Shown here: in pieces, positions 48,328 to 54,404 of the stretch
How positions within the stretch are numbered: the stretch's first letter is position 1
Layout: the number at the start of each line of letters is the position of its first letter
DNA from: Xylanimonas allomyrinae
Lineage (GTDB): Bacteria > Actinomycetota > Actinomycetes > Actinomycetales > Cellulomonadaceae
NCBI RefSeq assembly: GCF_004135345.1
Contig: NZ_CP035495.1
Span: 2,604,001-2,668,000 of the forward strand
Reading direction: 5' to 3'
Length of the DNA: 64,000 nucleotides
The notes under the pieces: model-generated
What the model saw: the letters and a program-made list of their open reading frames with translations, nothing else
Databases searched by the model: none
Told to the model about the DNA's origin: nothing
Made by a program: the position numbers and the translations under genes

Positions 48328-50694
48328 TCATGCCGCCGCGAGCAGCCTGGTCACGCGCACCGTGCGCGCCCGTGCCGTGGCGAGCACCGTGAGGCCGAGC
48401 CCCGCGACACCCCACACCACGAGCCCCACGAGGGCGGCACCCACCCCGCCGGCAGCCGGCACCACGAGGCCCACGAGGGCCTGGCGTGCGTCGCCGATCG
48501 CGAGCAGGTCGGCGATCGAGCTCAGCCACCCGGGCACCGTCGCGACCACACCCGTCGCGATGACGAGCACCGCCATGAGCAGGCTGACGCCGCGCGCCAG
48601 GTCGCCCAGCAGCAGGCTGAACCCCTGGTGCAGGGTCACGAACACCACCGAGGCGAGCACCCCGAGCGCGATCGCCCCGAACCAGCCGCCCACCGACAGG
48701 TGCTCGACGGCCGCGATCACCACGCCGACGACGGCACCCGTCACGGCGGCGACCGCCGCGGGCAGCGCGAGGTCGGAGACCGCGAGCCGCAGCGCGCCCC
48801 TGGTCGCACCCAGTGCACGCGCACGCGACGGACGCACCACCGTGGTCAGGCCGAGCGCACCGAGCCACAGCGCGACGACGGCGAACAGCGGCCCCGTCGA
48901 CCCGGTGTCGAGCGCGTCGTCGCCGGGGGCCCGGACCGGGTCTGAGACCACGGACGCGAGCGTCGCGCGCTCGCCGTCGCTGTAGCTCGGCACCTGGTCG
49001 ACCGCCTGGCCGAGCCCGTCGGCGAGGTCCCCGGCACCGGACGCGAGCAGGCCGGCGCCCGTGGCCAGGCCCTGGGCGCCGCTCGTGACGCCGTCGGCCC
49101 CGGACGCGAGCAGGCCGACCCCGGACGCGAGCCCGTCGGCCCCCGAGGCGACGCCCGACGCGCCCGTCGCGAGCTGGCGGGTGCCGCTCGCGAGGTCGCC
49201 CGCACCGGCGGCCACCTGGCTCACACCGCCCTGCAGCAACGTCGTCTTCGAGGCGAACTGCTGCGCGCCGTCCTGCAGCCCGTCCGCCCCGGTGGCGACC
49301 TGGGCGGCACCGGCCTGGAGCTGCCCGAGGCTCGTGCCGAGCTTCTGTGCGCCGGTCTGGAGCGCGCCCGCACCCTGGTCCGCGGCGGCGGTGAGGCCGT
49401 TCGACAGCGCGTAGAGGGTCGTCGACTGCGCCGGGTCGTCCTGGGGCGTGCCGGCGGCGGCCTTCAGGCCCGCGACCGCGCCGCTGAGCCCGGGCGTGGT
49501 GGTCCCGTCCCCGTCGAGCACGACGGGGATCGTCGCCATGGCGGTGAGGAGATCGGCGTGCGTGGCGCAGTCCGGGCCGGGCTGTGCGACGTCACACCCG
49601 TCCAACCGCAAGAACTCGGCCAGCGCCCGGTTCGTCGCGGTGGTCGCGGTCCGCAGGGCGTCGACGCCGCCGCCGATGTTCGTCGCGGCGCCCGCGAGAC
49701 CCTGAGCCGCGCCCGACGCGCCCGCGGCCGCCGTCGTGAGCTGGCCCTTGAGGTCCCCCGCCCCGTCGGCGAGGTCGGTCGCGCCCTTCGTGGCGAGCCC
49801 GAGCCCGTCCGACACCTGGCCTGCGCCCGTGGCGATCCCTCCCGCGCCGTCGGCCAGGGTCGACGCGCCCGCGGCGAGCTGGGCCGCGCCCGACGCGGCC
49901 TGGGACGCCCCGGACGCGAGTGCCGTCGCGCCCCCCGACGCCGACCGAGCCCCGGTGGCGAGCTGCTGCGCACCGTCCGCGAGGTCACCGGCTCCGCTCG
50001 CCGCCGACGTCGCGCCGGCAGCGAGCTGCGAGGCGCCGTCCGCGAGCTGCGTGGCACCGTCTGCGGCCGACGTGGCGCCGTCCTGCAGCTGTGTGGCTCC
50101 GTCAGCCGCCTGCCCGAGCTGGTCGGACAGCGTGGTGAAGCCGACCAGCACGTTGTCCACGAACGTCTGCGTGAGCGACGAGCCCAGCACCGACGTCGCG
50201 GTCGAGGCGACGACGCGCGCGAGCACGGCGTCCGCGACGCGCCCGCCGGGCGGGGTCGCGACGTCGATGGTCGCCTGCCGTGCCTTGCTCGGGTCGTCCC
50301 CGCCGAACGACGTCGCGGCCGCCGAGAAGTCCTCCGGGATGGTCACGACGGCGGCGTAGGTGCCGTCGGCCAGCCCGGCGCGGGCCTGGGCCGCGTTCGT
50401 GAGCTGCCACTCGTAGCTCGCGTCCGAGGCGGGCGCGGCCTTGACGGTCTGCTCCGTCGACGGTGCGGCACCCGAGACGAGCCCTGCCGCGAGCTGGCGC
50501 CCGAGCGGCACGAGCTGCCCGTCCACCGTGACGGGCACGTCGTTGTTGACGATGGCGGCCTTGACGGTGTCGAACCGCTCGGCGGGGTTCCACAGTGCGG
50601 TCAGCAGCAGCCCGAGCACGAGGATCGGCAGCAGCGCGACCGCGGCCAGCCGCCAGACTCCGGCGCGGGTGCCGGTGCGGATCAGGGCGTTCAC
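48328..50694 (-). CDS. YhgE/Pip domain membrane protein
   Basis: 788-residue membrane protein related to Bacillus YhgE and phage infection protein (Pip), ABC-2-like exporters. One N-terminal helix (LAAVALLPILVLGLLLTALW), a large extracellular region opening with a Pip domain (ERFDTVKAAIVNNDVPVTVDG), then a long run of seven-residue repeats (ATQLADGASQLAAGA, GADGLASGVG) forming a coiled coil, and five to six C-terminal helices (LFAVVALWLGALGLTTVV onward). The GTG start at 50694 overlaps the mmpL stop and has SD GGAGGTG. Co-transcribed with the MMPL gene and probably repressed by the divergent TetR. Confidence 0.88.
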   Translation of the reverse strand: MNALIRTGTRAGVWRLAAVALLPILVLGLLLTALWNPAERFDTVKAAIVNNDVPVTVDGQLVPLGRQLAAGLVSGAAPSTEQTVKAAPASDASYEWQLTNAAQARAGLADGTYAAVVTIPEDFSAAATSFGGDDPSKARQATIDVATPPGGRVADAVLARVVASTATSVLGSSLTQTFVDNVLVGFTTLSDQLGQAADGATQLQDGATSAADGATQLADGASQLAAGATSAASGAGDLADGAQQLATGARSASGGATALASGASQAASGAAQLAAGASTLADGAGGIATGAGQVSDGLGLATKGATDLADGAGDLKGQLTTAAAGASGAAQGLAGAATNIGGGVDALRTATTATNRALAEFLRLDGCDVAQPGPDCATHADLLTAMATIPVVLDGDGTTTPGLSGAVAGLKAAAGTPQDDPAQSTTLYALSNGLTAAADQGAGALQTGAQKLGTSLGQLQAGAAQVATGADGLQDGAQQFASKTTLLQGGVSQVAAGAGDLASGTRQLATGASGVASGADGLASGVGLLASGADGVTSGAQGLATGAGLLASGAGDLADGLGQAVDQVPSYSDGERATLASVVSDPVRAPGDDALDTGSTGPLFAVVALWLGALGLTTVVRPSRARALGATRGALRLAVSDLALPAAVAAVTGAVVGVVIAAVEHLSVGGWFGAIALGVLASVVFVTLHQGFSLLLGDLARGVSLLMAVLVIATGVVATVPGWLSSIADLLAIGDARQALVGLVVPAAGGVGAALVGLVVWGVAGLGLTVLATARARTVRVTRLLAAA

Positions 50695-53693
50695 TTCGAC
50701 ACCTCCGAGTCGTCGTTCGCGGTGAGCGCGCCGACGGCGGCTCGGGCCGGGGCCGTCGCCCCGGCCGGCGTGTGCGCGGGTTCGGGCCCGCCGGGGGGTG
50801 GGCAGTCGCCGAGGTCCACGACCTGCGCGTCGGGCAGCAGGTCGGACGCGTCGGCGCCGGTCGTGCCCACGAGCACGGCGACGCCCGCCGAGCGCGCGGC
50901 CCCGAGCGCGTACGCCAGCGCCTCGCGCCCGCCCCTGTCTCCCAGGGCGTGCACGCGCAGCACGACGACGGCGCGCGGGGAGTCCTCGAGCGCGTCGACG
51001 ACCGCGCCGGCGACCGCCAGCCCGTCCGGTGAGGGGCCGTGGGCGGAGCCGCCGTCGGCGGCCGAGGCGTCGAGCACCGCGACCCGCGACCGGACCGCGG
51101 CCGCCCGCTCGGGCAGCACGTAGCCGGCGACCTTGACCGCACCCGCGGACCCCTCCGAGGGGTGCAGCCGCAGCCGTCCGGCGAGGGCGAGCAGCACTGC
51201 GTCCGCGGACGCCGCGGCGTCGGCGCGCACGACGAGCGCCCCGCCGTCGGGCACCCGCACCGTGACCGGGCCGGCGAGCGGCTCGCCACCCGGGCCGTCG
51301 ACCACGAGCCCGTGCGCGACGACGGCGTCGTTCGCGCCCGGCTCGGGCCAGTCGGCGAGCGCGAGCTCCTTGGCGACGCTCTCCCCCTCGACGTCGAAGT
51401 GCGGCAGCAGCCGGTCGAGCCACCGGGGGATGTACCAGGCGTGCTCGCCGAGCAGGGCCATGACGGCGGGCACCAGCACCATCCGCACGACGAAGGCGTC
51501 GACCGCCACGCCGACGGCCAGGCCGAGCGCGATCGGCTTGAGGTTCATGTCGCCCTCGGGGACGAACGCCGCGAAGACGGCGAACATGATGACGGCCGCG
51601 GCGGTGACGACGGGAGCCGACCCCTGGAAGCCCGAGAGCACCGCGCGGCGGGCCCGCGCCCGCGTCCCGCCCGCCGCGGAGCGGTCGCCGTGGACGAAGT
51701 CCTCGCGCATGCGCGACACGAGGAACACCTCGTAGTCCATGGCGAGCCCGAACAGCACGCCCATGAGGACGATCGGCATGAAGCTGATGACCGGGCCCGT
51801 GCGCGTGACCTGGAGCAGGTCGGCGAGGAACCCGTGCTGGAACACGAGCGTGACGACGCCGAACGCCGACCCCACGCTCAGCAGGTACCCGAGCGACGCC
51901 TTGACGGGCACCCACACCGACCGGAACACCATGGTCAGCAGCACCAGGCACAGCCCGACGACGACGAGCCCGAACGGCAGCAGGGCCTCGCCCAGCTTGG
52001 CCGAGACGTCGATGCCCACGGCGGTGAACCCGGTGACGGAGATGTCGACGCCGTACTCCTGCAGGAAGTGCGGGCGCAACCCGCGGATCTCGTGGACCAG
52101 GTCCTCGGTGGCGACCGACGTCGGGCCGCCCTCGGGGATGACCTGGACGATGCCGGTGTCGGCGGACTCGTTGGGGGTGGCGAGCGGCACGTCGGCGACG
52201 CCGGGCAGCGCGCGGATCTCGTCGGCCATCGCGTTCATGAGGCCGACCGGGTCGGTGCTCGTGACGATCGAGCCGGTGACGATGAGCGGGCCGTTGAAGC
52301 CCTCGCCGAACTCCTGCGAGACCAGGTCGTAGGTGATGCGCGCGTCGCTGTCACGGGGCAGCACCCCGGCGTCGGGCAGGGCCAGGCGCAGGCCGGTGGC
52401 CGGCCAGCTGAGCGCGGCGAGCGCGGCGACGACGAGCACGATCGTGACGACGGGCCACCGGGTGACGCCGCGCACCCACGTGGCGAAGAAGCCGCCCCGA
52501 GGGGCGGTCGCGGGGGCCGGACGGGAGGTCGCGTCGTCGTGGGCGGGGGCGGCGTCGGGCGTGGCGTCGGGCGCGGCCTTTGCGGCGGCGACGGTCGCGG
52601 TCCCCGTGCCCGCTGCCCCAGCAGCTGCCGCGGTGCGCTTCGCACGGCGACGGCCGCGCGGGGCGCGCGGCGCGGGTCGCAGCCGCTCGCCCGCGAACCC
52701 GAGCAGCGCGGGCAGCAGCGTGAGCGACACGAGCACGGCGACGCCCACGCCCCCGGCGGCGGCCACGCCCATGACGGTGAGGAACGGGATGCCCGCGACG
52801 GCGAGGCCCACCAGCGCGATCATCACGGTGAGCCCGGCGAAGACGACGGCGGAGCCCGCGGTCGCGGTCGCGCGCGCGACCGACTCCTCGACGGCGAGGC
52901 CGTCGCGTAGCTGGTCGCGGTGCCGCGAGACGATGAACAGCGCGTAGTCGATGCCGACGGCGAGGCCGAGCATGACGGCCAGCATCGGCGTCGTCGACCC
53001 GATGGTGGCGACCGACGTCGCGGCGAACAGCAGGCCCATGCTCACGCCGACGCCCACGAGGGCGTTGGCCAGCGGCAGTCCTGCGGCGACGAACGAGCCG
53101 AGCGTGAGCACCAGGACGACGAGCGCGACGACCAGGCCCAGCCCCTCGGTGACCGAGATCGACGGGAACTCGGTGGCGAAGAGCTGGCCGCCGAGCTCGG
53201 CGCGGGCGCCGTCGGGCAGCGCCGACCGCAGCTGCGTGGTCTCGTCCTGGAGCGCGTCCTTGGTCGAGTCGAGGATCGACCCGAGGTCGCCGTCGAGCTG
53301 CACCTGGAGGATCGTCGCGTTCCCGGCGTCGTTGACCGACGCGGCCATGGTCTCGTCGTACGGAGAGGTCACGGCGACGACCTGGTCGAGGTGGCCGAAG
53401 GCCGTGACGGCGGCCTCGACGGGCGCCCTCATGCTGGCGTCGGTGATCGCCCCGCCGTCGGGGGCGACCACGATGACCTGCGCGGACACCCCGCTGACCT
53501 GGGGGAACGTTGCGGCGAGGCGTTCGAGCGCCTGGTTGGCCTCGGTACCGGGGATCGTCACCTCGTTGTCGAGGCCCTGCATCACCAGGCCCGCGGTGCC
53601 GCCGACGACGGCGAGGACCACCACCCAGCCGATGACGACGAGGCGGCGGGCGCGCAGCGCCCATCGGCCGAGCTGGTAGAGGACGGAGGACAT
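50691..53693 (-). CDS. MMPL family transporter with a C-terminal ABC-ATPase-like domain lacking Walker A
   Basis: 1000-residue RND-type transporter. Residues 1-780 have the MMPL arrangement: N-terminal helix, outer loop, helices with GLAVGIDYALFIVSRHRD, a second loop, and LMGVLFGLAMDYEVFLVSRMRED. A cytoplasmic Ala/Pro linker lies near residue 390. After the last helix, residues about 790-960 look like an ABC nucleotide-binding domain: LAGPVTVRVPDGGALVVRA, VLLALAGRLRLHPSEGSAG, AVVVLRVHALGDRGGREALA, GVAVLVGTTGADASDLLPDA. At the Walker A position is ADAAASADAV with no GxxxxGK, and the Walker B acidic pair is absent. Probably non-catalytic. Confidence 0.88.
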   Translation of the reverse strand: MSSVLYQLGRWALRARRLVVIGWVVVLAVVGGTAGLVMQGLDNEVTIPGTEANQALERLAATFPQVSGVSAQVIVVAPDGGAITDASMRAPVEAAVTAFGHLDQVVAVTSPYDETMAASVNDAGNATILQVQLDGDLGSILDSTKDALQDETTQLRSALPDGARAELGGQLFATEFPSISVTEGLGLVVALVVLVLTLGSFVAAGLPLANALVGVGVSMGLLFAATSVATIGSTTPMLAVMLGLAVGIDYALFIVSRHRDQLRDGLAVEESVARATATAGSAVVFAGLTVMIALVGLAVAGIPFLTVMGVAAAGGVGVAVLVSLTLLPALLGFAGERLRPAPRAPRGRRRAKRTAAAAGAAGTGTATVAAAKAAPDATPDAAPAHDDATSRPAPATAPRGGFFATWVRGVTRWPVVTIVLVVAALAALSWPATGLRLALPDAGVLPRDSDARITYDLVSQEFGEGFNGPLIVTGSIVTSTDPVGLMNAMADEIRALPGVADVPLATPNESADTGIVQVIPEGGPTSVATEDLVHEIRGLRPHFLQEYGVDISVTGFTAVGIDVSAKLGEALLPFGLVVVGLCLVLLTMVFRSVWVPVKASLGYLLSVGSAFGVVTLVFQHGFLADLLQVTRTGPVISFMPIVLMGVLFGLAMDYEVFLVSRMREDFVHGDRSAAGGTRARARRAVLSGFQGSAPVVTAAAVIMFAVFAAFVPEGDMNLKPIALGLAVGVAVDAFVVRMVLVPAVMALLGEHAWYIPRWLDRLLPHFDVEGESVAKELALADWPEPGANDAVVAHGLVVDGPGGEPLAGPVTVRVPDGGALVVRADAAASADAVLLALAGRLRLHPSEGSAGAVKVAGYVLPERAAAVRSRVAVLDASAADGGSAHGPSPDGLAVAGAVVDALEDSPRAVVVLRVHALGDRGGREALAYALGAARSAGVAVLVGTTGADASDLLPDAQVVDLGDCPPPGGPEPAHTPAGATAPARAAVGALTANDDSEVSK

Positions 53694-53733: not shown

Positions 53734-53775
53734 CATGACTGTATCCGATACAGCGGTGTATCGGATACAGTCATG
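53734..53775. promoter_or_regulatory. TetR operator between mmpL and tetR
   Basis: Perfect 42-bp palindrome: CATGACTGTATCCGATACA, four bases GCGG, then its reverse complement. Each half holds a (C/G)TGTATC-C/G-GATACAG palindrome, so two dimers could bind. It lies 40 bp before the MMPL start and three bases before the TetR GTG, ideal for repressing both. Confidence 0.88.
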
Positions 53776-53777
53776 AC

Positions 53778-54404
53778 GTGACCGACCTTCCGGCGATCTC
53801 ACCCCGGCGCGAGCGCACGCGCGAACGACTGCTCGACGCCGCCGCCGAGGTCTTCGCGCGCGTCGGCTTCGGGGCAGCCTCGGTCGAGGCCATCGCCGAC
53901 GCCGCCGGCTTCACCCGCGGGGCCTTCTACTCCAACTTCGAGAGCAAGGAAGCCCTGTTTCTCGCGCTCATCGAACGGCAGGGGCGCCGGCACGTCGCCG
54001 CGCTCGAGGCAGCGGTCGCCCGGCTCGACGCCGACGTCGTCCGCGCCCGCCACCTCAACAGCGACGCCATCCGCTCGGTGCTCGCCGCCGTCACCCAGGG
54101 GAAGGTGCCCGAGAGCGGCTGGTACCTCATGAACTCCGAGTTCGAGCTGCTGGCGATGCGCGCGCCCGGCATCGGGGCCGCGTGGATGGCCCAGCAGCGC
54201 GCGATGCGCGCCGAGCTCAGCGGCGTGCTCGACCGGCTCCTGGGCGGCCTCGGCCTACGGTTCACGACCGACCCTGCGATCGCCGTCGAACTGCTGCTCG
54301 GCGCGTGGGCCGCGAGCGCCCGCGACGCGTCGGTCGCGGGCGAGCCCGAGGTCGCGCCCGAGGCGTTGGAGGCCCTGGTCGACCTCCTGATCACGGAAGC
54401 GTGA
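53778..54404 (+). CDS. TetR family transcriptional regulator of the MMPL-Pip operon
   Basis: 208 residues, GTG start. The helix-turn-helix is seen in RERLLDAAAEVFARVGFGAASVEAIADAAGFTRGAFYSNFESKEALF; GAFYSNF is the classic recognition-helix end. The ligand domain has LMNSEFELLAMRAPGIGAAW and a helical dimer interface at the C-terminus. Divergent from the MMPL gene across 84 bp containing a perfect palindrome adjoining its start codon, so it very likely represses itself and the transporter pair. Effector unknown; hydrophobic compounds or lipids are typical for such systems. Confidence 0.93.
   Translation: MTDLPAISPRRERTRERLLDAAAEVFARVGFGAASVEAIADAAGFTRGAFYSNFESKEALFLALIERQGRRHVAALEAAVARLDADVVRARHLNSDAIRSVLAAVTQGKVPESGWYLMNSEFELLAMRAPGIGAAWMAQQRAMRAELSGVLDRLLGGLGLRFTTDPAIAVELLLGAWAASARDASVAGEPEVAPEALEALVDLLITEA

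Follow-up and report, generated by a model that had tools for sequence, protein, structure and literature searches.

The C-terminal extension of an MMPL (RND) transporter, encoded in the 64,000-nucleotide stretch of DNA analysed here (the window), is predicted to form an ABC-type nucleotide-binding domain (NBD), and its sequence marks it as a catalytically dead one. Its nearest relatives, judged by sequence comparison, are free-standing ATPases encoded directly upstream of YhgE/Pip genes, a kinship newly observed here. We favour, with somewhat more confidence than doubt, the view that Pip's former ATPase, once fused to MMPL, became a docking adaptor that joins MMPL and Pip in a hybrid RND/ABC-2-like exporter. 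A literature search covering mostly papers readable without subscription found no relevant description of MMPL with YhgE or of MMPL with degenerate NBDs. Such an arrangement would link the RND and ABC exporter superfamilies through one polypeptide and bear on envelope export in actinobacteria. It would also provide a lead to the function of YhgE/Pip, as an ABC-2-like permease with an ATPase partner that is either encoded alongside or survives as a dead adaptor, and open to testing how an ABC-type permease could run without ATP hydrolysis.

Table 1. Features of the MMPL and Pip genes and their surroundings, in window positions.
Feature	Position	Strand	Basis
YhgE/Pip protein, 788 aa	48328..50694	-	TIGR03061, TIGR03057, TIGR03062
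Predicted cytosolic loop after first helix of Pip C-terminal half	48796..48837	-	model helix limits, inferred topology
Overlap of 4 bp (GTGA) between MMPL stop codon and Pip start codon	50691..50694	-	sequence
Gene of MMPL/RND transporter fused to pseudo-NBD; longest ORF 1027 aa	50691..53774	-	PF03176
Predicted degenerate ABC NBD (pseudo-NBD), residues ~814-991, without helical/LSGGQ subdomain	50802..51335	-	AF2 model, fold and profile searches, alignment
H-loop equivalent VAVLVGTTGADASDLLPDA, residues 965-983, His lost	50826..50882	-	alignment
Walker B remnant AVVVLRV, residues 935-941, acids lost	50952..50972	-	alignment
Best-conserved pseudo-NBD stretch GAVKVAGYVLPERAAAVRSRVAVLD, residues 878-902, up to Q-loop position	51069..51143	-	alignment
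Walker A remnant ADAAASAD, residues 851-858, Lys lost	51201..51224	-	alignment
Conserved hinge AWYIPRWLDRLLPHFDVEGE, residues 779-798	51381..51440	-	alignment
Divergent TetR-family regulator	53778..54404	+	PF00440, E 1.3e-16

The MMPL transporter and its C-terminal domain

The MMPL ORF matched PF03176 in two stretches, well above the cut-off of 20.5 bits (E 3.9e-80, 269.7 bits). Like other members of the MmpL3/MMPL family of RND transporters (PF03176, NF052608), its product has two MMPL halves with a DY motif in each, and in the translation both motifs are intact (GIDYALF and AMDYEVF). By analogy to MmpL3 we take these Asp-Tyr pairs to be the proton relay, which makes proton drive of the MMPL part likely. 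The protein matched the MmpL3 model best over residues 428-790 (E 1e-55), but remained far under that model's cut-off (189.6 vs 1400 bits). The hinge connects the last MMPL helix with the extra domain and is found too in MMPLs that terminate just beyond it. In the window's protein an extension begins after residue ~800, leaving about 230 extra residues C-terminal of the hinge; the cytosolic tail of MmpL3 is not known to have an ABC fold.

A family profile was made from an alignment of 30 in-frame homologues, which share 48-71% identity with the window's domain and have dozens of invariant residues; fused ORFs with the domain occur in many genera of the window's order. When this profile was compared with the PDB, ABC ATPases ranked first (EcfA2, 3e-5; CbiO, 1e-4), and the mycobacterial ABC protein 6tqe was also matched (0.0055). 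For the window's domain, AlphaFold2 produced a model (pLDDT 77.8, pTM 0.73) with 898 Foldseek matches at E<=1e-3, the best at E 3.5e-9, and among the 50 matches listed all were ABC proteins or known by entry title only. VIA aligned the model with ABC NBDs at Z 14-16, the best alignment (Z 16.3) covering 169 residues at 3.1 A (model residues 36-213). The predicted domain is thus an ABC NBD with a RecA-like core. The AlphaFold2, Foldseek and VIA matches bear out the earlier note on this DNA, which had read an ABC fold from the letters within 50691-51320, a span that holds all of the domain except its first strand; structure prediction and profile searching, which the note had proposed, returned an ABC ATPase fold and not an unrelated one.

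The motif order that the note had described is recognisable in the alignment: strands, a degenerate P-loop, LLALAGRL, VVVL at the Walker B position and VLVGTTGADASDLLPDA at the H-loop. Its claim that the Walker A glycines and lysine and the Walker B acids are missing also held. None of 58 homologues has the Lys of GxxGxGK[ST], the column being occupied by Val (29), Arg (19), Ala (4), Gly (3) and Thr, Ser or Pro (one each), and the working Walker A that closer alignment might have brought to light was found in none of the 58. At the Walker B position the window reads VVVLRV, without Asp-Glu, and at the H-loop VGTTGAD, without His. Alignment with 32 other ABC ATPases found the segment with the helical subdomain and LSGGQ absent from the fused domains. 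The pattern kept most, G..K..G..LP.....VR..V, lies beyond Walker A, ahead of the Q-loop position, and not near Walker B. On this evidence the domain is, to judge by its motifs, a pseudo-ATPase. The least degenerate fused copy (L105) has GPHRSGRT and VVVVDDLD and appears by sequence to be a natural intermediate of the decay. In one genus (g31; L069, L072, L074, L080 and L084) the degenerate P-loop is three residues shorter, for example ASGQ---ARKALLL, a further decay step.

A Pfam search with the window's own extension sequence found no match, so the gathering score of ABC_tran (PF00005) was not reached, and 2 of the 30 family members matched ABC_tran weakly. These results would fit a spurious resemblance to ABC ATPases of a domain unrelated to them. 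We regard such a coincidence as barely conceivable, however, because fold, profile and profile-profile searches are concordant and graded intermediates such as L105 are known. Weak Pfam matches of some homologues to dehydrogenases and other families (Ldh_2, DapB_N) were dismissed as chance, since the fold comparison and the profile searches both point to ABC. A second reading frame that stays open across the domain also has matches, which we put down to an artefact of GC-rich DNA. The Pip frame is likewise open far upstream, across the MMPL C-terminus (48328-51951, a 1207-aa ORF), and was interpreted in the same way.

Free-standing ATPases upstream of YhgE/Pip genes

Free-standing ABC ATPases were found at 34 places among the matches listed for the family profile, and their neighbours were inspected. 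Twenty-two lay directly upstream of a YhgE/Pip gene, one stood at a contig end and 11 had no Pip; eight of these 11 appear to be orthologues of one another, copies of an ordinary ATPase in a single genus. The ten top matches, all above 47.2 bits, were Pip-linked without exception. The earlier note's association of the domain with Pip was thereby strengthened, as the closest free-standing relatives are ATPases directly upstream of Pip genes. A search for the domain free-standing between MMPL and Pip genes, which the note had proposed, found none: the free-standing loci hold no MMPL, and where a Pip gene is present the ATPase gene stands directly before it. In a reverse search starting from TIGR03061 Pip genes, 29 loci could be evaluated, and in about 22 of them the gene immediately upstream codes for an ABC ATPase or a fused MMPL; the others include Pip-Pip pairs or are unclear. 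Tandem Pip-Pip pairs without a recognised upstream ATPase were seen in some genomes of the order (L146, L148, L149).

Phylogeny and profile comparison agreed with this picture. In a maximum-likelihood tree of the domain (69 rows, 161 shared core columns), the fused and Pip-linked forms were united with support 100/98.5 against 32 other ABCs, which include four no-Pip matches of the same profile. Within this tree the fused group formed a single clade with moderate support (78/88). The fused profile aligned by hhalign with the Pip-linked set at E 1.2e-18 (score 125, 33% identity), compared with E 6.5e-6 (score 44) for the ordinary ABC ATPases of the window's genome.

The free-standing Pip-linked ATPases (L087-L091, L094-L096, L103, L104, L126, L187-L193) come from the window's order, stand beside the fused domain in the tree and have LLLxLAGRxxP and G..LP..A..VRRxVA in common with it. 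Unlike the fused domain, they are encoded by a separate gene and their Walker A is mostly intact. The helical segment is present, with LSGGQ replaced (by FVSDLxPLER in many), and Walker B is mostly VDD. All 13 that were scanned matched ABC_tran, and their motifs characterise them as a non-canonical ABC ATPase group. One further free-standing ATPase-like protein adjoining Pip (L205; G224:C31, about 174141) has lost the Walker A Lys (GDPGPAATT) and has a very long branch; its sequence looks like an independent decay of a Pip-linked ATPase.

The Pip partner, gene linkage and selection

The neighbouring gene had been named YhgE/Pip in the earlier note and likened to ABC-2 permeases; the name was confirmed, and the predicted fold agrees with the likeness. 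The N-terminal domain matched TIGR03061 (2.8e-28, 98.6 bits) above the cut-off of 96.15, and the C-terminal domain matched TIGR03062 at 43 bits, under the cut-off of 102.2. In the AlphaFold2 model (pLDDT 77.0, pTM 0.51), the membrane domain is split by a long helical coiled coil of heptad repeats, of which the sequence has 11 stretches. VIA aligned the membrane part with ABCG5/G8 (Z 17.4, 221 residues at 3.9 A) and found it to resemble Pdr5, CcmB and NosY as well. Foldseek on the whole Pip chain gave no match at E <= 0.001, so the ABCG/ABC-2 assignment rests on VIA and on PF12698, which the window's Pip matched at 29.4 bits (cut-off 31.6) and 27 of 29 Pip homologues matched with E down to 9e-22. 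On these grounds the predicted membrane fold of Pip is that of an ABC-2/ABCG-like permease. Its predicted cytosolic loop (Table 1) is at the coupling-loop position of ABC-2 permeases and can be aligned between MMPL-linked and ATPase-linked Pips. The Pip N-terminal domain is shared with the phage infection proteins of L. lactis (Pip) and E. faecalis (PIPEF), but the window's Pip differs in its linkage to an MMPL with a pseudo-NBD and in its TIGR03062 score below cut-off. The enterococcal PIP has been described as having a YhgE/PIP domain without known function and an MFS-like C-terminus (PMC4999554), whereas the fold modelled for the window's Pip is ABCG/ABC-2-like.

We inspected 66 distinct fused loci, one of which ended at a contig end, and in all 65 readable loci YhgE/Pip lay directly downstream on the same strand. 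By comparison, Pip stood beside none of 31 domain-less MMPLs ending after the hinge, a few of whose contigs end soon after the gene; a profile scan of genome contigs, which matched only the MMPL hinge (profile residues 1-38), contributed to this control set. A Pip start codon was available at a 4-bp overlap with the MMPL stop in most of the 30 loci with full flanks, as counted by a script that preferred this position whenever available. The fused MMPLs form one clade in a quick tree (SH-aLRT 99), and therefore the 65 loci are not independent events; one fusion followed by long retention is indicated, and the perfect Pip linkage may reflect a single inherited event. In a sample of 246 genomes of the phylum, strong domain matches were confined to the window's order, save for one genome from a different order in the same class. 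The fusion of ATPase and MMPL appears to have happened about once, in actinobacteria.

Purifying selection acts on the domain. Its median dN/dS was 0.21 in 63 close pairs, which are not independent of one another, compared with 0.06 for the preceding MMPL half, which means a faster rate of change in the domain than in the MMPL core. Loss of every catalytic motif, together with variable length and loops, might suggest a decaying vestige without function. This we consider very improbable given the dN/dS values, the identity and invariant residues among the 30 homologues, the compact and confident predicted fold and the retention of the domain across the order.

A candidate hybrid exporter

In the explanation we prefer, the ancestral ABC ATPase of YhgE/Pip would have become joined to the C-terminal end of an MMPL (RND) protein in an actinobacterial ancestor. 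It would then have lost the Walker A Lys, the Walker B acid, the H-loop His and the whole helical/signature subdomain while its core was kept. The pseudo-NBD could now serve as an adaptor that docks on the coupling loop at the cytosolic side of Pip, which would be co-translated with MMPL, and so tethers MMPL and Pip in one complex; it may have been retained because of this tethering. MMPL would supply energy from the proton gradient, and Pip would contribute another route through the membrane together with a long coiled coil outside the cell. The cargo moved across the envelope might be a lipid-like or other hydrophobic substrate. Since the MMPL and Pip genes overlap and MMPL carries a remnant of a Pip ATPase, they probably function together as a single hybrid machine, and we infer, as the earlier note had proposed, a hybrid RND/ABC-like exporter.

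The main rival to docking on Pip is that the pseudo-NBD regulates MMPL itself, for instance by sensing a cytosolic ligand or lipid without touching Pip, the adjacency of the two genes being a relic of the fusion. The NBD core and the helical subdomain of ABC transporters grip the coupling helix between them; since the helical subdomain is deleted here, docking on Pip would have to differ, and regulation of MMPL alone gains from this loss of part of the usual grip on the permease. It would also agree with the single clade of fused MMPLs, whose linkage to Pip could be historical, and with a domain that outpaces the MMPL core in evolution. Over such distances, however, neighbouring genes seldom stay in order, and the constant position of Pip directly downstream in many genera, usually with a start codon that would allow a 4-bp overlap, as well as the coupling-loop segment kept in Pip, make regulation of MMPL alone unlikely in our estimation.

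Two further readings concern how Pip would be powered. The proton-driven RND cycle of MMPL might move the dead NBD and thereby drive Pip, an ABC permease then running on the proton gradient and not on ATP; we find this possible, if doubtful. Alternatively, the pseudo-NBD could be one half of a heterodimer with a single degenerate site, the other half being an intact ABC ATPase from another locus, and Pip would still be driven by ATP. Degenerate NBDs occur in heterodimeric ABC exporters with one such site, for example TmrAB and CFTR, in which the weakened NBD is kept as a structural part, as it is in the fused domain. Partners would be available, with 133 ABC_tran matches in the window's genome and a free-standing Pip-linked ATPase also in some genomes. 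However, exporters of the TmrAB/CFTR type keep Walker A and a partner NBD, whereas the fused domain is joined to an RND pump and has neither Walker A nor the signature motif, so that it cannot provide its share of either ATP site in a dimer. Moreover, the best other match of the profile in the window's genome reached only E 0.0016, and the single Pip gene of this genome adjoins the fused MMPL. We hold the pairing with an intact ATPase in trans to be improbable, and less likely than regulation of MMPL alone.

The divergent TetR-family gene is a probable local regulator. The likely true start of MMPL, judged from the sequence, is Met28, at about 53693. A start at the ATG at 53774 would place about 27 more residues ahead of MSSVLYQLGRWALRARR and leave no space before the TetR ORF.
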